A stretch of DNA of 56,750 nt from Bacteroidota bacterium (GTDB lineage Bacteria > Bacteroidota > Ignavibacteria > UBA10030 > BY39). Where the stretch lies: assembly GCA_030682385.1 (NCBI GenBank), contig JAUXOG010000090.1:1-56750 (forward strand). Direction: 5' to 3'. Of the stretch, positions 18,197 to 56,624 are shown piece after piece. The position numbers and the translations under genes were made by a program. The notes under the pieces were generated by a model. The model was not told the DNA's origin, ran no database searches, and saw nothing but the letters and a program-made list of their open reading frames with translations. Numbering within the stretch: the first letter of the stretch is position 1; each line of letters opens with the position of its first letter.

Positions 18197-19249
18197 ATGT
18201 CGAAGACTAAAGCTATAGCAACCGAACAACTCGATTATACTATAAGCGGAATTAAATTAAAATATGGTATTACAGAAATCATTTTGATGATAGGGTCACA
18301 TTTTTTTAAAATACTTTCATACATAGTTACTTTCATAATTATACTTTCAATCGCAGCCGTTGTTATTCCATATATTGACGGAGCAAAGCAATATCCGATG
18401 TTCCAGTTTATCGCAAAGTCTGCTGACACTGCAACCACTCTGTTGCGTCAGCAAATTCCAACAAAAATAAAGGGGCACGAGGTGGGAATTTGGATGATCA
18501 TTATCGGCGCGTTAATTCTTAAAAGCTCATCCAGAAGTTTTTCAGAGAAGTTGGGTGAAAAAGTTTATTTTATACACTTCAAAAGAAAATATAATTTTTG
18601 GAAATCGCAGCAGCATATTAAAAAAGGGTCTGCAATTACAAGTAAATTAGACCAAACTTTGAATGATTTAGAAAATGCAAAACCTAAAGACAGGGAAGAA
18701 ATATTAAAACAGTTTATAGAAACAAAGAAAAAATTGGATGCGATGGGGAGGGATTTAGCTTTCCTCTCGATTGATGTAGTTGAATCTACAAAGATGAAAG
18801 AGGGTGAGGAGAAAGCTTTTGTTGAACATGATTTCAGAGAATTTAAACGTTTTGTTGATGGCGTGTTACTTTCAAATGATGTTTTGAAAACTACCTGGAC
18901 GCCCGATGGAGTTATGTCGTGCTTTGAACGTGTCGATCAAGCTGTTACTGCCGGGAGGCATGTAATTATCGGACTTGATGCGTTCAATAGAAATATAAAA
19001 AGTATGAGGCGCGATTTTGTTGTGCGGGGTGGTGTGAATTCGGGATTTGTTTATTACGACGAAAGCTTACCACTTGAAGAAATTGCCGACCGGGTAATTG
19101 ATATTGCAGGGCATTTCCAAAAGCATGCGAAGCCGAATTCAATTTGGATAGCTAAGCCATCGATCGAGCCGCTTGCAACTCGCGATGGTTTCCGTCCTAC
19201 TACCGAAGTCGTGGATGGTTACGAGGTTTATGAGTGGAAGAAAGATTGA
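18197..19249 (+). CDS. Membrane protein with class III adenylate/guanylate cyclase-like domain
   Basis: About 350 aa. The ATG at 18197 follows GAAAGGCAGCAAA; a TTG at 18182 would add five residues and overlap the deacetylase gene. Two transmembrane segments lie at about residues 22-56 and 88-105, then a coiled region (LDQTLNDLENAKPKDREEIL). The C-terminal domain (about 180-350) looks like a cyclase homology domain: LAFLSIDVVESTKM, TWTPDGVMSCF, RGGVNSGFVYYDE and VIDIAGHFQKHAKP. The first Asp of the metal pair (SIDVVEST) is present and a second Asp is in TPDGVM. Whether it makes a cyclic nucleotide is untested. Confidence 0.8.
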   Translation: MSKTKAIATEQLDYTISGIKLKYGITEIILMIGSHFFKILSYIVTFIIILSIAAVVIPYIDGAKQYPMFQFIAKSADTATTLLRQQIPTKIKGHEVGIWMIIIGALILKSSSRSFSEKLGEKVYFIHFKRKYNFWKSQQHIKKGSAITSKLDQTLNDLENAKPKDREEILKQFIETKKKLDAMGRDLAFLSIDVVESTKMKEGEEKAFVEHDFREFKRFVDGVLLSNDVLKTTWTPDGVMSCFERVDQAVTAGRHVIIGLDAFNRNIKSMRRDFVVRGGVNSGFVYYDESLPLEEIADRVIDIAGHFQKHAKPNSIWIAKPSIEPLATRDGFRPTTEVVDGYEVYEWKKD

Positions 19250-19327: not shown

Positions 19328-19957
19328 TTAAATCAAACAGATAATCCTTGATTCATCTGACCATTGCCCGACTTCATTATCTTTTATTAGATATCGCATA
19401 CGATATATGCGCGTCTCGGGTGTATCGGGATTAACGCTTGCCCGCTTATCTTCATAAGGCGATACGTTATCTTTTCCTAATAACGAAAAATTAGTTTCGT
19501 TACCACGCTTGCTTTGTATTACAACCCCGTCGAATTCCGATTTTATCCAATCGAGTCTAACCCTGTCGGGCATTATGGTAGGTGTAAAGGTTGGCTTCAT
19601 GTTTTCGAGTGGTAAACCTTTTCCAAAACCTACTTCTACAGGAACCACACCCAGGTCTTCACCAATCGATTTAGTATAACCCGGCTGGCGTTTAAGTATT
19701 ACAACTTTATCGCGAATACGTTTTTCCATCTGATCGAAAAAATTGTTTTTCTGTTTAACCAATGCCTGCGTGGTGGTTCTACTGTTTTCTACGTCTGTAA
19801 TTTGCTTTGTGGCATCGGTAAGATCAGTTTGAAATTGTGAAATATCGGCTGGCGTTAAACCGATTGTTGCGGCATGAACCTGAGCTTTGTCGATAAAATT
19901 ATCGAACCAAACTAGAAAGCGTTCGTCCGTTTTCGGAAAGTAATCCTTGTTAGGCAT
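19328..19957 (-). CDS. Unrecognised 209-aa protein with FN3-like tail
   Basis: A very strong AGGAGG sits seven bases before the ATG. No signal peptide. The N-terminal half (about 1-90) is alpha-helical and charged (FLVWFDNFIDKAQVHAATIG, DLTDATKQITDVENSRTTTQ). The C-terminal part (about 120-209) is beta-rich and ends YRMRYLIKDNEVGQWSDESR, resembling the last strands of a fibronectin-III domain. I do not recognise the family or a function. The 845 bp upstream contain no convincing gene but hold paired palindromes, a degenerate 21-bp tandem array and a MITE. The convergent cyclase-like gene ends 78 bp away. Confidence 0.7.
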   Translation of the reverse strand: MPNKDYFPKTDERFLVWFDNFIDKAQVHAATIGLTPADISQFQTDLTDATKQITDVENSRTTTQALVKQKNNFFDQMEKRIRDKVVILKRQPGYTKSIGEDLGVVPVEVGFGKGLPLENMKPTFTPTIMPDRVRLDWIKSEFDGVVIQSKRGNETNFSLLGKDNVSPYEDKRASVNPDTPETRIYRMRYLIKDNEVGQWSDESRIICLI

Positions 19958-19987
19958 AATATCCTCCTATTGTTTTTGTTTTTGTTT

Positions 19988-20017
19988 TCCGCCAAAGGCG
20001 GATCCGCCTATGGCGGA
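19988..20017. repeat. Two tandem 15-bp GC-rich palindromes
   Basis: Two head-to-tail units of TCCGCC-NNN-GGCGGA (19988-20002 with AAA loop, 20003-20017 with TAT loop). The same 15-bp unit occurs inside MITE copy A (20614-20628) and in an attC-like site (23452-23466). They lie about 30 bp upstream of the minus-strand gene start at 19957. Confidence 0.8.
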
Positions 20018-20054
20018 GTTATTTGTGTCGAAGTATTTACAAAAACTCCCTGTA

Positions 20055-20411
20055 TCAAATCCCGAATTGCTTATACAATATCCCGAAATAACTTTTCCAA
20101 AATCTGTAACCCCATGTTGAAGGTTTAAAATGTTTGTCGGTAGGTTAAAAAGTGTTGCGGGATTCCTATGACTGTAAAGATAAATAAACCGTATATGAGA
20201 GACATCCCGCGAGGGGACGTGGGTTTGAAACAGACACACATCGTAATCCGAGGAGAGATGAAGGAAGGGGAAAAAAGGTATCGGGGTTTGGAATAACCAT
20301 TTTGGGATTTGGAAAGAAGAGTTTGGGAAGGGGTAAAACTGTTTCGGGAAAGTTCCGAGACAGAAGAGAAAAGCCCCTGAACTAAATGGGAAAGTAAATA
20401 TCTTCGTTTTT
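20055..20411. repeat. Degenerate 21-bp tandem repeat array
   Basis: About 17 units of exactly 21 bp. The register is clearest at 20265-20390, where GGG ends units at 20285, 20306, 20327, 20348 and 20390, and units open with AAGGGG, GTTTGG, ATTTGG, AAGGGG and AAAG. Upstream, the unit at 20223-20243 opens GTTTGAAA, and CCCG occurs at 20061 and 20082, again 21 bp apart. Units are heavily diverged. A minus-strand frame through 20125-20469 is open, but its peptide is low-complexity with no usable ribosome binding site, so I treat the array as non-coding. Nothing else is seen between the array and the MITE at 20526. Confidence 0.7.
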
Positions 20412-20525
20412 TAGTCATTTTAGACGTTTTTATTGAATGAATATAGCTGGGAGGCGGACCTGTCTGCATGCCACACAGGTAAACTGCGGTGTTGTAAAAC
20501 TGTATTTCAATATAATATGTTATTA

Positions 20526-20658
20526 ACTGAAGTTACGCAGAATCGACTTTTTGTCATGTTGAGCGAAGCGAAACATCTAAAAACAGCTCAAAATTGAGGT
20601 TTAAGATTCTTCATCCGCCTTTGGCGGATTCAGAATGACTGTTCTGCGTAACTTCAGT
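20526..20658 (+). mobile_element. MITE copy A (133 bp, non-autonomous)
   Basis: Terminal inverted repeats ACTGAAGTTACGCAGAA / TTCTGCGTAACTTCAGT (17 bp, perfect) are flanked by a 5-bp direct repeat TATTA (20521-20525 and 20659-20663). There is no ORF. The interior carries TGTCATGTTGAGCGAAGCG and, near the right end, a 15-bp TCCGCC-TTT-GGCGGA palindrome absent from copy B at the equivalent position. The transposase family is not identifiable from the inverted repeat alone. Confidence 0.9.
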
Positions 20659-20765
20659 TATTAACCATAAGTCAAGAAAAAAATTTTATAAAACACTTGA
20701 CTGAAACTCAAAAATAATATATATTAACTCAAGTTTATATAAAAACGCAATGCGTACTTACAGTA

Positions 20766-20802: not shown

Positions 20803-21453
20803 GTGAACAAAATGAATGAAGCTAAACTATTTCGGTTAGTGTGGCTGGCATTCCAAAACGCGTTACGACTCCATGAGGACTCCCAGATTCTATATCATAG
20901 AAAGTCATATCCGAGTGCTTTTTTCGTCTCAGTCCTTGCAGCGGAAGAGTATGGCAAGATGCAGATGCTCGATTTTCTGTACGAGAATAACTATCAATCT
21001 GATCCAGATGTCGAGAATCAGGTTCTCCGTGAAATCTATTCTCACATGTGGAAACAGCATCATTTCCGTCAAGATGTGTGGTCATTTCTGTTCGGAGGTT
21101 CCCTGCATAGGAAGCTTCCAGTGGATAATCTTGAGAGCCTTAAGCAGAAAGCGATCTATGTAGGTCTGCCACGCAGCAAACGAAAAATCAATCTCAGAGG
21201 ACGAATCATTGCCCCTTTTGATGTTTCAGCGAAACAGGCGCAAAAGCAGATTACGCTTCTAAATGACTTGCTGCTGGAGCGAGTTCTTGGAGTCCGAGCA
21301 GGGTATTACTCTTGGGACACTCTGGAGGTTGAAGGGTTTTCAAAGAAACGCTTTGCTGACAGACTAATGAATCGTTGGACATATTCTGGCAGGGCTGCCA
21401 TAAAGAGGTTCAAAAAAAGGTATCGAATAACAGGAAGACGTGCCATCGCATAA
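20803..21453 (+). CDS. AbiV-family abortive infection protein (HEPN-like)
   Basis: 216 aa. The N-terminal helical domain has the AbiV signature AFFVSVLAAEEYGKMQMLDF, with Glu48-Glu49 and Gly51-Lys52, in a helical frame of the kind seen in HEPN-like small defence proteins. AbiV of Lactococcus blocks phage translation; here the role is inferred only from family likeness. The C-terminus is strongly basic (RAAIKRFKKRYRITGRRA). The start may be GTG at 20803 or ATG at 20812; neither has an ideal ribosome binding site. It is the only gene of cassette 1, and the attC-like inverse core overlaps its last codons. Composition is richer in G+C than flanking genes, consistent with transfer. Confidence 0.75.
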   Translation: MNKMNEAKLFRLVWLAFQNALRLHEDSQILYHRKSYPSAFFVSVLAAEEYGKMQMLDFLYENNYQSDPDVENQVLREIYSHMWKQHHFRQDVWSFLFGGSLHRKLPVDNLESLKQKAIYVGLPRSKRKINLRGRIIAPFDVSAKQAQKQITLLNDLLLERVLGVRAGYYSWDTLEVEGFSKKRFADRLMNRWTYSGRAAIKRFKKRYRITGRRAIA

Positions 21454-21550
21454 CACCGAAAAACTACGACGCTAGTTCATTTGGTAAGTCAACGCACATG
21501 CTTACGCACGACAATGAATATAGAACTCGCTCATCCGCCCCACGTTAGGC
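21448..21550 (+). other. attC-like site 1 (103 bp)
   Basis: Runs from GCATAAC (21448-21454) to GTTAGGC (21544-21550). The left shoulder ACTACGACGCTAG resembles the shoulders of the other sites (AACAACGCCGCTGG, ATAACGACGCTGG). Inner pairing is modest (AGTTC/GAACT). It separates the AbiV-like gene from the WD40 gene. Confidence 0.65.
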
Positions 21551-21590
21551 GCAATTGTTTTGCTCTCACAACAGAAAGGAAAATAGTAAC

Positions 21591-22568
21591 ATGAAGAAGT
21601 CTAAGCTCTACTCGTTTCTAATCTTAGTTGGACTTTGCTCGGTAGTGTTTGCTCAAAAAAAAGAGCCTATACTTCTTACTACGCTAACTGGACACACGGA
21701 GAAAGTCAGTTCGCTTGCCATTAGCTCGGATGGCCATTGGCTTGCCAGCGGTAGCGACAGTAAAGATATTTTTGGCGAGCACGGCACATTTGAAATTATC
21801 ATCTGGAATTTAAAGACAAACAAAATTCTGTACCATCTTTCTGGACACGAAGCGTCAATCCAGTCTCTGGCTTTCAACCCTGATGGAAGCACTCTCGTAA
21901 GCGGCGACTCCAAAGGAACCCTCAAGGTCTGGGATGTTCTAACAGGTCTAGAAATAACATCATCAAAGGAGAATGAGTGGCTCAACACTCTGGTTTTCAC
22001 TCCAAATGGCAAACTCATTATTGGGGAAGAGAATTTTGCCAAGAAGCTCAAGGTATGGACAGCAAATCCGCTTCAGCTGATAGCACAGATTACGGTGGGT
22101 GTGGAAACTAACAACATTGACATAAGCCCGACTGGCGAGATGATTGCCATCGGGTGCTACAAGCAGTTCAAGATATGGTCATTTCCTCAAAAAGATTTCC
22201 TAAAGTCAAATGACTTTGAATCTCGCATTCACTGTGTCAAATACTCCCCAAATGGAAAACTGATTGCTGGAGGATTAGGCGAAGGCGACATCGTTCTTTG
22301 GGAGACCGACCAATACACGCCAATTGCAACACTTAAAGGTCACTTTCTACCTGTACTAAGCGTATCATTTAGCAGAGATAATTCTTTGTTGGTCAGTGGC
22401 AGTTCAGACCAAACCATAAGACTCTGGGACATCAAGAAACAGGTGGAGCTTTCTTCACTCGTGAATCAACACAAAGGCAATATAAGCGCTGTTTGTTTTA
22501 GCCCAACAGAGAACGTTTTTTTCTCAACGGGTGAGGACGGTTCAATCAAGGTTTGGAAACTGCGCTAA
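21591..22568 (+). CDS. Exported WD40-repeat protein
   Basis: 325 aa from the ATG at 21591, which follows AAAGGAAAATAGTAAC; an upstream in-frame TTG would spoil the signal peptide. Signal peptide is about residues 1-22 (cut after VFA). Six to seven WD40 blades follow, with repeated phrases such as SSLAISSDGHWLASGS, QSLAFNPDGSTLVSGD, VLSVSFSRDNSLLVSGSSDQ and SAVCFSPTENVFFSTGEDGS, each closing IRLWD/IKVWK. WD40 propellers are binding scaffolds; no partner domain is fused. It opens cassette 2 and is followed by a membrane-protein gene with no attC between them, so the two travel as one unit. Confidence 0.85.
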   Translation: MKKSKLYSFLILVGLCSVVFAQKKEPILLTTLTGHTEKVSSLAISSDGHWLASGSDSKDIFGEHGTFEIIIWNLKTNKILYHLSGHEASIQSLAFNPDGSTLVSGDSKGTLKVWDVLTGLEITSSKENEWLNTLVFTPNGKLIIGEENFAKKLKVWTANPLQLIAQITVGVETNNIDISPTGEMIAIGCYKQFKIWSFPQKDFLKSNDFESRIHCVKYSPNGKLIAGGLGEGDIVLWETDQYTPIATLKGHFLPVLSVSFSRDNSLLVSGSSDQTIRLWDIKKQVELSSLVNQHKGNISAVCFSPTENVFFSTGEDGSIKVWKLR

Positions 22569-22596
22569 CACACTGCTCGCATATGGAGAAATCACA

Positions 22597-23160
22597 ATGA
22601 ATGATAAACCAACATTTCCCTGGAAAAAAACGATCATAGTGTCTGCATCCTTCGGCGCTGTCTTTGCAATTGTTTCGGCACTTTTTTTAGTCGCTTATCT
22701 TTGGTTTGAATCACGCCCGAAGCCTCCGATCCCTTGGAACAAAAGTGCACTTGTCGCAGCTTACGATTTCCTCGATACAGAAGGAGATGACAACTCACTC
22801 GTTTTCTCATACACTCTTGAGAACAACACAGATGCCGATTATAATGCCACCGAAAGCCAATCTCTTACAATAATGGCAAACATTGAAGATCAGAACATCC
22901 TGAGACAATCGGCTGGTAAAAATGATCCAATAAAACTTGATTACCCCATCTTTGTGCCTTCCAAGCATAAAGTCCGTATCAAAGTTCATTTCGGGTACTC
23001 CCTCGAACATCCTATCAAGCCAAGAGGTGTGAACGAAGATAAAAAAGTGTTTCGTAAATCTCTTGAGAGTTACTTAAATACAGAAGCACCGTCTCTTCAC
23101 GGCTTTGTCATCTTTGATCACTCAAGGAGATTTGAGATTTCCTTACCAAAGGGATGGTGA
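22597..23160 (+). CDS. Single-pass membrane protein, unrecognised, second gene of cassette 2
   Basis: 187 aa from ATG 22597, preceded by TATGGAGAAATCAC; the frame is open upstream but there overlaps the WD40 gene. One transmembrane segment (about residues 14-36), short cytoplasmic N-terminus (MNDKPTFPWKK), then a soluble beta-rich domain (SLVFSYTLENNTDADYNATE through GFVIFDHSRRFEISLP). That looks like an extracytoplasmic binding domain, but I do not recognise a family. Gap to the WD40 gene is 28 bp with no attC, so they are probably co-expressed partners. Confidence 0.65.
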   Translation: MNDKPTFPWKKTIIVSASFGAVFAIVSALFLVAYLWFESRPKPPIPWNKSALVAAYDFLDTEGDDNSLVFSYTLENNTDADYNATESQSLTIMANIEDQNILRQSAGKNDPIKLDYPIFVPSKHKVRIKVHFGYSLEHPIKPRGVNEDKKVFRKSLESYLNTEAPSLHGFVIFDHSRRFEISLPKGW

Positions 23161-23188
23161 CTGTGACCTCAGCAAGCAAAACAACTGC

Positions 23189-23324
23189 GCCTAACAGCAG
23201 GCATTACGATGCTCACTTATTTTGAAAATATGGAAATTAAAGTGCTCATTCCATTTGTTTTGCCGCAAGAGGAATGAGTTAATTATAGCGGCAAAACAAA
23301 CGGCGTGCTTACAAAACGTTGGGC
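23189..23324 (+). other. attC-like site 2 (136 bp)
   Basis: From GCCTAAC (23189-23195) to GTTGGGC (23318-23324). A 13-bp stem TTTGTTTTGCCGC/GCGGCAAAACAAA lies in its centre. The preceding TGCGCCTAAC is the exact complement of the 10 bases GTTAGGCGCA that open cassette 2. Confidence 0.6.
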
Positions 23325-23500
23325 AGACATTCGCTCGCGTTCGCTCGCGCATAAGCGTCTGCCCAACGGCGAGCGGGCTTCGCCCTCGTTGGGCGACAAG
23401 CTTCGCTTCGCGAACGTCGCCCAACATCGGGAACAACGGCAAACGCTCCCTTCCGCCTTCGGCGGAGGTCGCGCTTCGTTGTTCCCGCTCGCCGTTAGGC
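23318..23500 (+). other. Two gene-less mini-cassettes or nested attC hairpins
   Basis: GTTGGGCAGAC (from 23318) pairs with GTCTGCCCAAC (to 23367), and GTTGGGCGAC (from 23388) pairs with GTCGCCCAAC (to 23425). Each unit therefore obeys the cassette complementarity rule but has room for no gene. The second closes with an 82-bp attC-like site, 23419-23500, with an 11-bp stem CGGGAACAACG/CGTTGTTCCCG and a TCCGCC-TTC-GGCGGA palindrome (23452-23466) at its tip. The first closes with only a 34-bp hairpin (23361-23394), short for an attC. This accounts for the gene-free 369 bp before the next ORF. Confidence 0.5.
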
Positions 23501-23529
23501 GAAATGCCTTTTAAATTATTGGTGTAAAT

Positions 23530-23937
23530 ATGATAAACTGGTCTCGTGTTTTGAAAATCATAGCAAAGATATTGGGCGTTTGTCTAGTACTTTGGGGAAT
23601 TGCGTTCGGTGTATTTGGAATTATTCTTGGCATTGACCTATATATCCCTGGGCTAGAAGCCAAATTTCTCGCAATATTAATATGTATATATGCAATCGGT
23701 ACAGGTATTCTGTATTGGCTTCCCAACGAAAACGTCCTCCCCCACAAAAAGATTTATCTCATGCTTACACTTATCCCGTTTGTGGGCGGGATCATTATGT
23801 CAGCATATGAAGTTCTAATACATGGTATCGATTCTCCTTTTGTGGAGGATCTAGCAATCTTTTGGGTCTTAATAATGATATGTTTGTCTTTAGCAGCTCC
23901 TGTTTCTCTTCTACTTCACATGAAATCAAAACAATAA
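23530..23937 (+). CDS. Four-helix membrane protein, unrecognised (cassette 3)
   Basis: 135 aa with four hydrophobic segments at about residues 12-36, 42-62, 75-95 and 106-130. The third starts YLMLTLIPFVGGIIMSAYEV. No catalytic motif or family is recognised. The ATG lies 36 bp after the cassette core GTTAGGC, typical spacing for a cassette gene, with a weak GGTG ribosome binding site. The attC-like site begins 24 bp after the stop. It could be a defence effector or immunity protein, as small membrane proteins in such arrays often are, but that is speculation. Confidence 0.65.
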   Translation: MINWSRVLKIIAKILGVCLVLWGIAFGVFGIILGIDLYIPGLEAKFLAILICIYAIGTGILYWLPNENVLPHKKIYLMLTLIPFVGGIIMSAYEVLIHGIDSPFVEDLAIFWVLIMICLSLAAPVSLLLHMKSKQ

Positions 23938-23961
23938 TAAGAAAAATATACGAGGCACTTC

Positions 23962-24091
23962 GCCTAACACGGCAAACAACGCCGCTGGAAATGTCATGGT
24001 TAGAAAAAGCCTCGCTCAATGCTTTTGCTCACGAGGAATTTGTCATTTGATAGTTCACAAAAGCAATGCGTTGTTTGCCGAAACGTTATGT
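23962..24091 (+). other. attC-like site (130 bp) closing cassette 3
   Basis: GCCTAAC (23962-23968) to GTTATGT (24085-24091), with a 13-bp perfect inner stem CGGCAAACAACGC/GCGTTGTTTGCCG. This is the best-formed attC of the array. GGCACTTCGCCTAAC complements the cassette opening GTTAGGCGAAATGCC at 14 of 15 bases. Confidence 0.75.
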
Positions 24092-24154
24092 GCCATTGTG
24101 CCCGCTAATGATCCGGGAATTTTGTATATTAGATGAAAATTAGAAAGCCAACGA

Positions 24155-25105
24155 ATGACGGTTACAACAATCAAAAAACCGGAGTCCAAAGTTAAATACT
24201 CAACGCCCAATACCACAAGTATTCTAAAAGACAGCGGTCTCTGCCAAGCGAAGGAATACTTCAGGCACAAGGATGTAATTCTCTTCGAGGGCGACACTCT
24301 CAATGAATATCTTTTCAACCGAGAATTTATTGACCTGATCGTTACTTCACCACCATACAACGTTGGCATACAATACAACTCTCACAAAGATGAGCTAACA
24401 TATGAAGATTACTTGGAGTTTTCTGAAAAGTGGTTTCGGAATTGCTATAAGTGGACAAAGCCTCAAGGACGTCTAATTCTTAACATTCCACTTGATAAGA
24501 ACAAAGGTGGTCAACGAAGTGTTGGCGCCGACCTGACTACGATAGCTCAAAAAGTTGGCTGGAAATATCACTCAACAATTGTTTGGAATGAGGGCAATAT
24601 TTCTCGGCGCACAGCTTGGGGTTCTTGGTTGTCCGCATCTGCGCCGTTTGTCATTGCTCCTGTAGAACTCATAGTCGTTCTCTACAAGGATAGCTGGAAG
24701 AAAACAACTGGCAGTAGAGTTTCTGACATCAAACGTCAGGAGTTTATGGATTGGACTAACGGAGTCTGGACATTCAATGGTGAGAGCGGCAAACGAGTCG
24801 GTCATCCTGCTCCTTTTCCCCGAGAACTTCCCCATCGTGCAATCAAATTATTTAGCTTCGTTAGAGACGTTGTCTTTGATCCCTTCTGTGGTAGTGGGAC
24901 AACTCTTATCGAGTCAGCTAACAATAATCGCATCGGTATTGGCGTTGAGATCGACAAACATTACTGTGAATTAGCAAAAAACAGAATCTTGAACGAAACA
25001 GGAACACTCAACTTTGAAAAAGAAACCAATAAGCCAAAGAAACCTAATAATGGAGTATTTCCAAAAACATCCCAACAGAAATATTCCGCATCCGGAAATC
25101 GTTGA
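24155..25105 (+). CDS. Site-specific DNA methyltransferase (TSPPY, beta-class order)
   Basis: 316 aa. It transfers a methyl group from S-adenosylmethionine to an exocyclic amino group (cytosine-N4 or adenine-N6). Catalytic motif IV is TSPPY at residues 64-68; the AdoMet-binding motif I, DPFCGSGTT, comes later at 242-250, the beta-class order. The HPAPFPRELPHR phrase before motif I is common in this group. TSPPY favours N4-cytosine but does not prove it. The 3' end overlaps the HNH nuclease gene by 92 bp in another frame, which ties the two as a modification-restriction pair. It lies 64 bp inside cassette 4. Confidence 0.92.
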   Translation: MTVTTIKKPESKVKYSTPNTTSILKDSGLCQAKEYFRHKDVILFEGDTLNEYLFNREFIDLIVTSPPYNVGIQYNSHKDELTYEDYLEFSEKWFRNCYKWTKPQGRLILNIPLDKNKGGQRSVGADLTTIAQKVGWKYHSTIVWNEGNISRRTAWGSWLSASAPFVIAPVELIVVLYKDSWKKTTGSRVSDIKRQEFMDWTNGVWTFNGESGKRVGHPAPFPRELPHRAIKLFSFVRDVVFDPFCGSGTTLIESANNNRIGIGVEIDKHYCELAKNRILNETGTLNFEKETNKPKKPNNGVFPKTSQQKYSASGNR

Positions 25106-25601
25106 CTGGGCAACTTCTGAGTTAAAGAAACGAACTGGCGAAGTTTTCAGAGACCCTGACAGACAAATCAGACAACTCTCCCAGCAAGGATATCTCATCA
25201 AGGTTTCCAAAGGTGTTTATCGCTATGAACCCGATGCGGTCAATAATCGCGAACTTGAAGAATTTACAGCTTCCCAAAAGAAAATGATTTTTGAACGAGA
25301 TGGTTACAAATGTGTCATTTGCGGTCGAGGTGAGAAAGAAGGTTTTGAATTACACGCTGACCATATCAAGCCAAGGGAACTTGGTGGCAAGGCAACAATC
25401 GAAAATGGTCAGACACTTTGCTCACAGCATAACATTATGAAAAAAGCTCTGAAGCAAACAGAGACAGGAAAGAAAATGTTTATCCGCCTCTATGAATTAG
25501 CGAAGAATGAGAATGAGAAAGAACTTCAAAAGTTTTTCGCTGAAGTCTTGGAAGTCTACGAGAAAAACAAAATCAATTCTCATATAGTCTGGAAAAAATA
25601 A
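25014..25601 (+). CDS. HNH endonuclease, likely restriction partner of the methyltransferase
   Basis: 195 aa. The N-terminal part (about 5-72) resembles a winged helix for DNA binding (LIMEYFQKHPNRNIPHPEIV, QLSQQGYLIKVSKGVYRYEP). The C-terminal HNH domain has Cys100/Cys103 (CVICG), the catalytic HADHIKP (115-121) and Cys136/His139 (CSQHN), a zinc-stapled beta-beta-alpha-metal nuclease. The start may be TTG at 25014 or ATG at 25050; TTG keeps the full first helix. The 92-bp overlap with the methyltransferase gene suggests tight co-expression. Together they look like a compact type II restriction-modification system; target sequence unknown. Confidence 0.85.
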   Translation: MKKKPISQRNLIMEYFQKHPNRNIPHPEIVDWATSELKKRTGEVFRDPDRQIRQLSQQGYLIKVSKGVYRYEPDAVNNRELEEFTASQKKMIFERDGYKCVICGRGEKEGFELHADHIKPRELGGKATIENGQTLCSQHNIMKKALKQTETGKKMFIRLYELAKNENEKELQKFFAEVLEVYEKNKINSHIVWKK

Positions 25602-45553: not shown

Positions 45554-46792
45554 ATGTCAGGTAATACATACGGTGAAAAATTCAGGGTTACAACATTCGG
45601 CGAAAGCCACGGCAAATCTGTAGGTGTTGTAATTGATGGCGTTCCATCGAAGTTAGAATTGTCCCACGAAGATATACAAAAAGAGCTTGACCGACGACGC
45701 CCCGGACAAAGCATTATTACAACCCAGCGGCAGGAAGAGGATAGAGCAGAAATTTTAAGCGGAGTTTTCGAAGGTAAAACACTCGGCACTCCGATTTGCA
45801 TAATCGTTTGGAACAAGGAAAAGCGTTCCGAAGATTATGAAAATATCAAAAACATCTTCCGTCCAGGACACGCCGATTTTTCGTACTATTCAAAATATGG
45901 AATATACGATTACCGCGGCGGCGGACGTGCATCGGGGAGAGAAACTATCGGTCGTGTTGCCGCAGGTGCAATAGCAAAAAAAATATTAGCTCAGCACAAA
46001 ATAAAAATTATCGCATACACAAAATCGGTTGCAGGTATTGAAGCGAAAAATATTGATTACCGCGAGATAGAAAAAAATTCCGTTCGCTGTCCCGATTCTA
46101 ATGCTGCAAAAAAAATGGAAAAGAAAATTTTAGAAGCAATGAAGGCGGGCGACTCGGTTGGCGGGATTGTTGAGGTTGTCGTTCAAGGCTGTCCGCCCGG
46201 ATTAGGCGAGCCGGTGTTCAACAAACTTGATGCTGAACTTGCTAAGGCGATGCTTTCGATTCCGGCTGTAAAAGGATTTGAGATTGGTTCGGGTTTTCAT
46301 TCGGCAGAAATTTATGGAAGCGAAAACAATGATGAATTTTATTTCGATAAAAAACTAAAGCGGATTCGGACACGCACCAACAATGCCGGCGGCGTTTTAG
46401 GTGGTATAACTACGGGTGAAGATATTATTTTTCGTATAGCCGTTAAGCCAACCTCATCAATTGGGTTGACTCAAAAAACTATCGGTTTGGATGGTACCCT
46501 AAAAACAATAAAAATTGAAGGGCGTCCCGCCTGCGTGCCGGAACGTATAGAAAAAATTCCTACAGAAGGTGTACCTGAACTCATAGAAGAGATTACTACG
46601 GCGGGCAGGCCCGCCTGCGTAACGGAAAATATATCAGAAATCACTACGGCGGGCAGGCCCGCCTGCGTGCCGGAACTGGAAACAGAAATCACTACGGCGG
46701 GCAGGCATGATCCCTGCATTTGTCCGCGGGTTGTTCCGGTGGCTGAGGCTATGACGGCTATTGTCATCGCTAATTATTTGTTTGTAAAATGA
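45554..46792 (+). CDS. aroC: Chorismate synthase with a 60-residue in-frame repeat insertion
   Basis: 412 aa from ATG 45554 (ATG 45551 also possible); an upstream in-frame ATG would add a tail encoded by repeat DNA. It makes chorismate from EPSP with reduced FMN. Conserved blocks: [42 protein letters not shown] and [15 protein letters not shown]. The expected C-terminal phrase [18 protein letters not shown] is split after GR by 60 residues (about 325-384; DNA 46526-46705). Removing them gives 352 aa, the usual length. Last gene of the shikimate cluster. It is probably functional if the loop is tolerated, but untested. Confidence 0.95.
46526..46705 (+). repeat. Palindromic 48-bp repeat insertion inside aroC
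   Basis: 180 bp, exactly 60 codons. Two near-identical 48-bp units (16 residues each, [16 protein letters not shown] and [16 protein letters not shown]) and an earlier diverged longer unit. Each carries the palindrome GGCGGGC-AG-GCCCGCC. Every unit restarts with Gly-Arg, so the original GR is duplicated at each step. Confidence 0.85.
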
Positions 46793-56400: not shown

Positions 56401-56624
56401 TCTATAACACTCTTGGCGAATATCTAACAACTTTAACTGATAACTACTTTGTTCCAGGAACTTATAGTGTTGAATGGAATCCTTCGACATCCTTCGGCTC
56501 CGCTCAGGACGGCGGCTCCGCTCAGGACGGCGGCTCAGGACGAGTGGTTGCAAGCGGTGTATATTTTGTAAAAATGAACACAGATAAATATTCTGCAGTA
56601 CAAAAAATGATCCTCCTACGCTAA
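53490..56624 (+). CDS. T9SS cargo protein with six FN3-like repeats between two shared domains
   Basis: 1044 aa. A GTG start at 53490 is the best available; no good ribosome binding site is seen and the MITE ends only 34 bp upstream, so the original start region may be altered. Signal peptide about residues 9-29 (ends IAAAQ). The shared domain appears at about 35-205 (AGVHPNATYCIDESV) and again at about 790-940 (FGVHPNATYGIDNSLGEYML). Between them are six fibronectin-III-like modules, each with a WRVR/WRVK strand. The sorting domain is at about 950-1044. Its loop holds GSAQDGGSAQDGGSG, encoded by an 18-bp repeat (56496-56531). Confidence 0.85.
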   Translation: MHHLNQIYFLKIIVIGLLLFAVSLIAAAQTNFIIPFRGESALGLRAKLLAGVHPNATYCIDESVILNFDDGTVVKEKELPPPSPAPDIEIRFKDSRSGAGACLGNGLDEDIKAYTTIGRIDTFMINYVAYIDELGNPRGYPVKIYWPVGINLVCDSIKITSPTAVRMRMDTTTFVVLSDPDFALMRIIKYGSKPYPEQPPLKAITYSPVKDSALKVVTPELIWSFVQSAISYNYQIALDENFTSIVIDDSTLNHQVIKQLNPLGYNKKYYWRVRARNQYGYGTFSNTNSFITPQLPVPTLVAPDSAAANLARPINFRWRKPVAIPRYHLQIANDINFTQVVINDTAVVDTFKQISLIPSGRTYFWRVRSSAEGNYGVFSNIRTFSLRLYKPAVPELLQPAHRDTGISPVTTFKWKTTLDAVSYHIQIASDTNITSIVFQDSTITDTSRLISLIPLTTYFWRVRAKNDSGITNSGVWRFRTRIPVPSAPTLFTPANNDTNALLSPTLNWNSAQYASQYELEVALDNNFTNKVYTNSNLVDSSQQIPTLISYIQYYWRVRAKNYVGIGNYSTVWNFKTILTPPEKVTLISPLNNTIDVITNPTVQWSSATRGVKYHYQVDTVITFAEPLFEDSSYSGFFKQIGPLELDKKYYWRVRSWNRTGYGDYSDTFNFITVGLPKPVTPVLKEPRNLAPNISLNPTLQWEVSLNAEVYFLEVARDSIFSLANRVLSDTTITTNERKIGSLAEKTRYYWRVKAKNKAGMSEWSLVWSFKTYGDEPANWLTSFVVFETGIARDTIRFGVHPNATYGIDNSLGEYMLPPVEPGYFDARWVSPPRRSGILGEGLRLNYIPFTSFTQIDTYKVSFQPGVGSYPITIRWNNLFLKNVCDSMQMRDEIGGFTVRVRMDLDNSVQITNEAVKTLLLVKWGARPLNVKIESNQIPDDFVLYQNYPNPFNPATNIRFSIKNSTRAVLTVYNTLGEYLTTLTDNYFVPGTYSVEWNPSTSFGSAQDGGSAQDGGSGRVVASGVYFVKMNTDKYSAVQKMILLR
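56496..56531 (+). repeat. 18-bp tandem repeat inside the sorting-domain loop
   Basis: GGCTCCGCTCAGGACGGC twice, plus a partial third copy. It encodes the Ser-Ala-Gln-Asp-Gly-Gly repeat and belongs to the CTTCGGCTCCGCTCAGGA class of dispersed repeats. Confidence 0.8.

Follow-up and report, generated by a model that had tools for sequence, protein, structure and literature searches.

Plasmid iterons are commonly spaced about two helical turns apart, and eukaryotic satellite DNA keeps its unit length while its sequence turns over in concert, leaving a homogeneous middle and decayed edges. In type III toxin-antitoxin loci a small gene is preceded by a tandem array, with repeats that differ between clusters; a ToxN-type protein is required, as is a terminator that separates repeats from gene, and the clusters of E. 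coli have 3-5.6 repeat units (PMC8860590). The sopC site of the F plasmid consists of twelve 43-bp repeats, and a ParB/SopB dimer binds the 16-bp inverted repeat that each of them contains (PMC9178275). TIGR arrays correspond to 36-nt RNAs with box motifs and spacers, their Tas proteins have a Nop domain, and some TIGR stem-loop arrays have segments that are variable but palindromic (PMC12045711).

We analysed a 56,750-nucleotide stretch of DNA from a Bacteroidota bacterium (contig JAUXOG010000090.1), hereafter called the window. It holds a degenerate 21-bp tandem array of about 16-17 units at 20045..20394, with no strand assigned, which we characterised by lag-21 autocorrelation, by its segments and by its inverted symmetry. 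The lag-21 identity at 20055-20411 is 0.390 compared to 0.266 in dinucleotide shuffles (z 4.95, reached by 0 of 1000 shuffles), and no shuffle matches this score anywhere across lags 2-60. A preliminary description of this DNA had claimed a 21-bp period, and the autocorrelation with its shuffled control shows that the claim is true. Lags 20 and 22 are also high in this region (z 4.2 and 4.1), presumably as a result of short homopolymers. Tandem Repeats Finder misses the array even with a minimum score of 30, and the array is therefore strongly degenerate.

The strongest lag-21 segments lie at about 20270-20394 and about 20045-20161, with a weaker middle between them, and these two better-preserved parts are inverted relative to each other around a centre near 20184 (mirror centre p 0.010). 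On recount, GGG starts at 20283/20284, 20304, 20325, 20346 and 20388 and CCC at 20061 and 20082, confirming the G-triplet and CCCG positions reported earlier. CRISPR was considered and rejected: the units are copies of one another rather than constant repeats split by unique spacers, and we agree with the earlier view that the array is neither CRISPR-like nor a plain microsatellite. Scans of the window found no tRNA and no Rfam match at gathering score.

The array had been placed in a gene-free stretch, which holds for the array itself; however, it lies directly upstream of a 209-aa gene on the minus strand (19328..19957) that had been taken as a mere neighbour. The leader between the array and the start codon (19958..20044, minus strand) contains the palindromic repeat TCCGCCAAAGGCGGATCCGCCTATGGCGGA at 19988-20017. 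The gene belongs to a family without assignment, which we studied through its homologues, a structure model, fibronectin type III (fn3) matches and dN/dS. The AlphaFold2 model (pLDDT 84.7; 90.0 for the N-terminus alone) shows a helix at residues 11-27, a long helix at 36-90, a short helix at 96-102 and a C-terminal domain at 116-209 that is fn3-like (VIA Z about 10-11 over 85-90 residues). With the whole protein as query, the matches listed by Foldseek and VIA are confined to the fn3 part, and a fold search with the N-terminal helices gave no significant match, which counts as no evidence. The protein is probably an oligomer through its long helix. Across Pfam, NCBIfam, PADLOC and PHROG, any one family matches at most 3 of 19 members, and does so weakly; solved structures include no convincing sequence relative. 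In 12 pairs of family members dN/dS is 0.10-0.21, and the family is therefore under purifying selection.

Homologues of the 209-aa gene are present in 5 of 60 relatives (the window's own genome counted) and in 8 of 395 genomes sampled from the phylum. In a distant order, 12 of the 149 genomes examined carry them, and within one family of that order 4 of 60 do. A tally of 130 out of 293 consists mostly of fn3-only matches within large proteins and was left out of the family count. The family is often multicopy, with 17 matches in genome G011, 11 in G010 and 10 in G212 (fragments counted). No relative was found among plasmids, phages and viral contigs.

The finding is a family-wide and phylum-wide association of this protein family with a 21-bp-phased array of free sequence. 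We computed the autocorrelation at lags 6-63, with the lag left unchosen, over the 500 bp upstream of each family gene at 68 loci from one phylum. Family matches lacking the N-terminal part were excluded, as were loci with less than 200 bp upstream (L031, L096, L131, L135 and L145, and in a later set L200 and L203). The best lag is 21 at 28 loci, 42 at 27 and 63 at 5, that is 60 of the 68, and max(z21,z42) exceeds 3 at 54 of them. In the later set, drawn from three newly found genomes, 15 of 17 loci qualify on both measures. The 68-locus survey is the unselected test, to which this set was added afterwards, and the arrays predicted earlier beside homologues of the 209-aa gene are present. In controls, the threshold is exceeded at 1 of 38 starts of other ORFs of at least 200 aa, at 1 of 78 random loci, in 7 of 110 window tiles, within 10 of 63 family genes themselves and in 5 of 61 regions 900-1400 bp downstream of the family start codon, two of these five being downstream arrays. 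The difference between family and other gene starts (Fisher p 1.6e-15) comes with a p-value that is too small because the loci are related.

The array is directly upstream of the gene usually, not always. Four of the 14 loci below threshold (L023, L030, L032 and L120) have an array further upstream, and at L024 and L026 it lies downstream of the family gene. Eight of the 68 genes have neither an upstream array of score at least 36 nor one of this downstream kind.

Arrays range from 6 to 32 units. For symmetry we used 43-46 arrays with a lag-21 score of at least 40, plus two downstream arrays and that of the window; their lag-21 value is circular since they were selected on it. Every one of the 43 arrays selected for lag 21 has its best lag within 36-48 at 42, and mean z is 12.5, 11.9 and 9.8 at lags 21, 42 and 63 compared to 0.8 at lags 20 and 22. 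Within 379,700 bases picked around family genes and gene-less arrays, a score of at least 40 is reached by 18 arrays with lag 21 and by 3 arrays with any other lag in the range 12-33. The 21-bp step is the sole near-universal trait of the arrays. Curvature through A-tracts was also considered and seems unlikely, as GC-rich arrays (for example L022 and L019) have no A-tracts and the mean autocorrelation profile of the 43 arrays has no 10/11-bp periodicity.

Spacing, not sequence, is the conserved trait of the arrays. Comparison of array profiles finds unit sequences unrelated from one locus to the next. Among family homologues down to about 25 % identity the units are fully replaced, and no 20- or 22-bp array was found. 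The earlier suggestion that spacing rather than sequence is under constraint is supported by the 21-bp step kept beside homologues with unrelated units, and the period does persist as sequence diverges. Paralogue pairs whose proteins are 60-94 % identical have arrays no more, or hardly more, alike than background; five protein pairs of 84-94 % identity have a profile similarity of 0.38-0.51, with a background of about 0.34. The close pair L030/L032 (dS 0.11) retains its array at 94.9 % over 355 bp, indicating that arrays diverge gradually but quickly, and at L138/L143 (dS 0.23 over 321 nt) the array is at 48.7 %.

This turnover is framed by conserved sequence. The G011 paralogues L015 and L018 share 85 % DNA identity in the gene, 71.5 % in the 200-bp leader and 49 % in the region from -550 to -200, where unrelated sequence gives 45 %. 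Two pairs in G727, L141/L144 and L138/L143, are conserved in the flank preceding the array and again at the start of the gene, while the array in between is replaced. Within arrays, unit identity is highest in the middle (0.57) and lower at the two edges (0.48 and 0.46), a pattern that unequal exchange would give.

Two side observations concern the surroundings of family genes. At L068, L093 and L094, the stretch 660-1200 bp after the family ATG is 95.6-99.3 % identical between different genera while the family gene is only 81-83 % identical, the next gene in L068 being a 349-aa ORF; either recent transfer or very uneven rates may account for this. In G769, L192 and L195 have a common array consensus and both contigs start about 270 bp before the gene, which points to assemblies breaking off where arrays are nearly identical.

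Many arrays are self-complementary. Judged against column permutation as the sole null, complementarity is concentrated at one (i+j) mod 21 value in 29 of 46 arrays at p<=0.05 and in 21 of 46 at p<=0.005, and in 6 of 10 arrays of the later set. Since 17 of the 46 have no significant complementarity, the property is common but not universal. A mirror-symmetry control is significant in 1 of 43 arrays, and complementarity assessed at the wrong period is found in 12 of 43 at 20 bp and 9 of 43 at 22 bp, compared to 27 of 43 at 21 bp. Some unit consensuses are near-perfect 21-bp palindromes, among them CTCTACGCTCGCAGCGTAGAG (L140) and AGTGCAATTAATTATTGCACT (L029). Arrays of such palindromic units have a dyad every 10.5 bp, one per helical turn and on one face.

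The window array has an inverted symmetry of z 3.5, with 0 of 200 permutations as high. In this array, as in L011, L023 and L037, distant parts are more complementary to one another than units are to themselves, and the between-halves complementarity of the window array fits hairpin formation as well as operators. Long mirrored hairpins reach p<=0.05 in only 8 of 46 arrays, the window's among them, and were rejected as a general array form. Single-unit RNA hairpins were likewise rejected: a first stem test was weak and strand-blind, and covariation within units is clear in few arrays (L138, L095 and L082).

We tentatively interpret the array as a fast-evolving 21-bp-phased satellite, inherited with the coiled-coil/fn3 gene and acting as a DNA-level cis platform of evenly spaced sites. 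The coiled-coil/fn3 protein would assemble on the evenly phased array DNA, and may recognise the form of that DNA (its phase, dyads or extruded hairpins) or make weak contacts rather than read a fixed sequence. Such assembly could lead to autoregulation or build a local nucleoprotein cluster. The arrays would renew themselves through unequal exchange or slippage in 21-bp steps, and such renewal would explain their homogeneous middles and decayed edges. Several observations count against a platform: no recognisable DNA-binding domain appears among the Pfam and structure matches of the 209-aa protein, some arrays are gene-less, 8 of 68 genes are without an array of the upstream or downstream kind, 17 of 46 arrays are without significant complementarity, and the window array pairs between its halves rather than within units. 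The array period can also be inherited in part without selection. We favour a DNA-level platform at two helical turns as the most likely reading, with a functionless satellite and an RNA array as serious rivals.

It is conceivable, with rather less confidence, that the gene family has its own satellite DNA whose function would lie in geometry alone, namely in a step of two turns, often with a dyad at every helical turn, while the bases themselves are free to change; the protein would organise DNA or act in regulation by reading phase and shape rather than sequence. If this is true, each genomic copy owns an array that looks different and is geometrically identical.

Alternatively, the array may be a functionless satellite or mobile repeat that took its step from a common ancestor and rides with the gene or hops beside it, which we regard as somewhat unlikely. 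Rapid turnover and the homogeneous middle with decayed edges agree with such an origin through unequal exchange, and so do dispersed gene-less copies. The array downstream of L026 in G010 has a unit that is found again at three further sites (L216 on C38, L217 on C15 and L218 on C43), which have in common a left flank of about 220 bp (95 % identity), two of the sites being near contig ends, and no family gene is found within the 5.8-11.5 kb of sequence around these arrays. G212 has two more arrays away from the gene, at 2 and 11 kb from a family gene. Either these extra arrays are copies that lack the gene, or the array is to some extent an element in its own right. A functionless repeat is harder to reconcile with units that are fully replaced down to about 25 % identity and yet never give way to 20- or 22-bp arrays, with the strong tie to one gene family (54 of 68 loci versus 1 of 38 other starts) and with complementary symmetry, which is not expected of drift.

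Another explanation, which we likewise hold to be somewhat unlikely, is that transcription of the array yields a structured repeat RNA which would bind the neighbouring protein or hold it in check, like type III toxin-antitoxin or other array RNAs. The array lies upstream of the gene, as does the tandem array that precedes the small gene of type III loci (PMC8860590), and predicted folding is strong: 43 arrays fold better than shuffles with a mean z of -3.8 for the sense and -4.2 for the antisense strand, and the plus strand of the window array has z -3.54. However, this folding is equal on both strands and the G.U bias is inconsistent. Mismatches at paired positions are balanced (G.U 273 versus A.C 280 in 20 arrays) with single arrays leaning strongly one way, a per-array consensus asymmetry test gives p 0.087 in 27 arrays, and no strand skew was found in the arrays. 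Two consensus promoter models, from which host promoters may differ, give no signal above shuffles in 41 flanks, and 1 of 32 leaders has a terminator-like site between array and gene where 0.2 are expected. In addition, no toxin is matched in Pfam, two arrays lie downstream of a gene, and a hairpin RNA would presumably need no exact 21-nt step. The balanced mismatches, the missing strand skew and the empty promoter and terminator scans favour a DNA-level role, as far as sequence can indicate.

A guide or target array of an RNA-guided or defence system not yet described is very unlikely. Its fixed flanks and replaced contents would suit such a system, as would the AbiV, DNA methyltransferase and HNH genes near the window array and the defence genes among some other family neighbours. 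The units, by contrast, are mutual copies with no unique spacers between constant repeats, and no nuclease or Nop domain is found in the 209-aa gene. Neighbours of 20 family loci (82 of 109 listed neighbours scanned) are mixed: some are restriction or defence genes (HsdM, methyltransferases, AbiTii and ApeA), one codes for a Mu-like portal protein and others are housekeeping genes. No constant partner emerges from the 25 families shown for these neighbours. That the arrays encode a heptad-repeat peptide or protein, the seven-codon option of the preliminary description, is scarcely credible and we reject it, for although 21 is divisible by 3 and 25 of 43 arrays are open in one sense frame, column variability is without period 3 (share 0.09, expected 0.10), stop codons close all three sense frames in 18 of 43 arrays, and no family is matched by the 114-aa minus-strand ORF over the window array.

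The window has further features around the array. Beyond it come AbiV, then a WD40 protein, a DNA methyltransferase and an HNH protein; this accessory stretch at 20803-25601 (AbiV, PF18728, E 4.8e-17; an N4/N6 DNA methyltransferase whose 3' end is overlapped by the HNH protein) looks like a small defence island. On the other side, the match between the window and the same-genus genome G001 ends at the end of a 355-aa gene (19242-19249), with other sequence thereafter. A MITE-like element of about 146 bp at 20519-20665 has 35-bp terminal inverted repeats (83 % complementary), with about 40 whole or partial matches each in its own genome and in G001. Two further tandem repeats occur: a 48-bp repeat at 46588-46706 (2.5 copies, 85 % match) that contains the palindromic GGCGGGCAGGCCCGCC, and the perfect 18-bp repeat CGGCTCCGCTCAGGACGG at 56495-56536 (2.3 copies).

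Regulatory and centromeric DNA is normally found through conserved sequence. In the arrays described here, function seems tied to spacing, and their sequence turns over more quickly than that of the gene beside them, which is why ordinary homology searches miss them. The arrays thus offer a natural multicopy bacterial system for asking whether DNA geometry alone can be selected, and an unassigned protein family gains a testable partner in its array.

A literature search, covering few subscription journals and no preprints, yielded no description of such 21-bp arrays, and within the literature and databases searched we found no described system that matches array and gene together. Type III toxin-antitoxin systems (ToxIN and relatives) resemble our loci in the tandem array directly upstream, met at 54 of 68 loci here, and in repeat sequences that differ between clusters there and between loci here. 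They differ in that our arrays have 6-32 units with a constant 21-bp step, and in the terminator between array and gene, found in only 1 of 32 leaders here. Pfam gives no ToxN/AbiQ match for the 209-aa protein at E<1, and none of the 16 families listed at E<0.1 for 19 family members is of that kind; the structure model has a long helix plus an fn3 domain. TIGR-Tas systems also have tandem arrays adjoining a gene, some with variable palindromic segments. Their box motifs and spacers are not found in our arrays, however, and Pfam gives no Nop domain match in the 209-aa family.

Iterons and sopC share with our arrays tandem sites spaced near whole helical turns, here exactly 21 bp. Dyads are found at p<=0.05 in 29 of 46 arrays and not in the other 17, and in the window array they lie between halves rather than within units. 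While one protein reads one conserved sequence in those systems, here the sequence is free and the step is kept; the 209-aa family has no Rep or ParB domain, and the arrays are multicopy on whole-genome contigs with no relative in the plasmid collection. Eukaryotic satellite DNA shows the same kept unit length, sequence turnover and mid-array homogeneity, whereas the arrays described here are short, bacterial and attached to one gene family.
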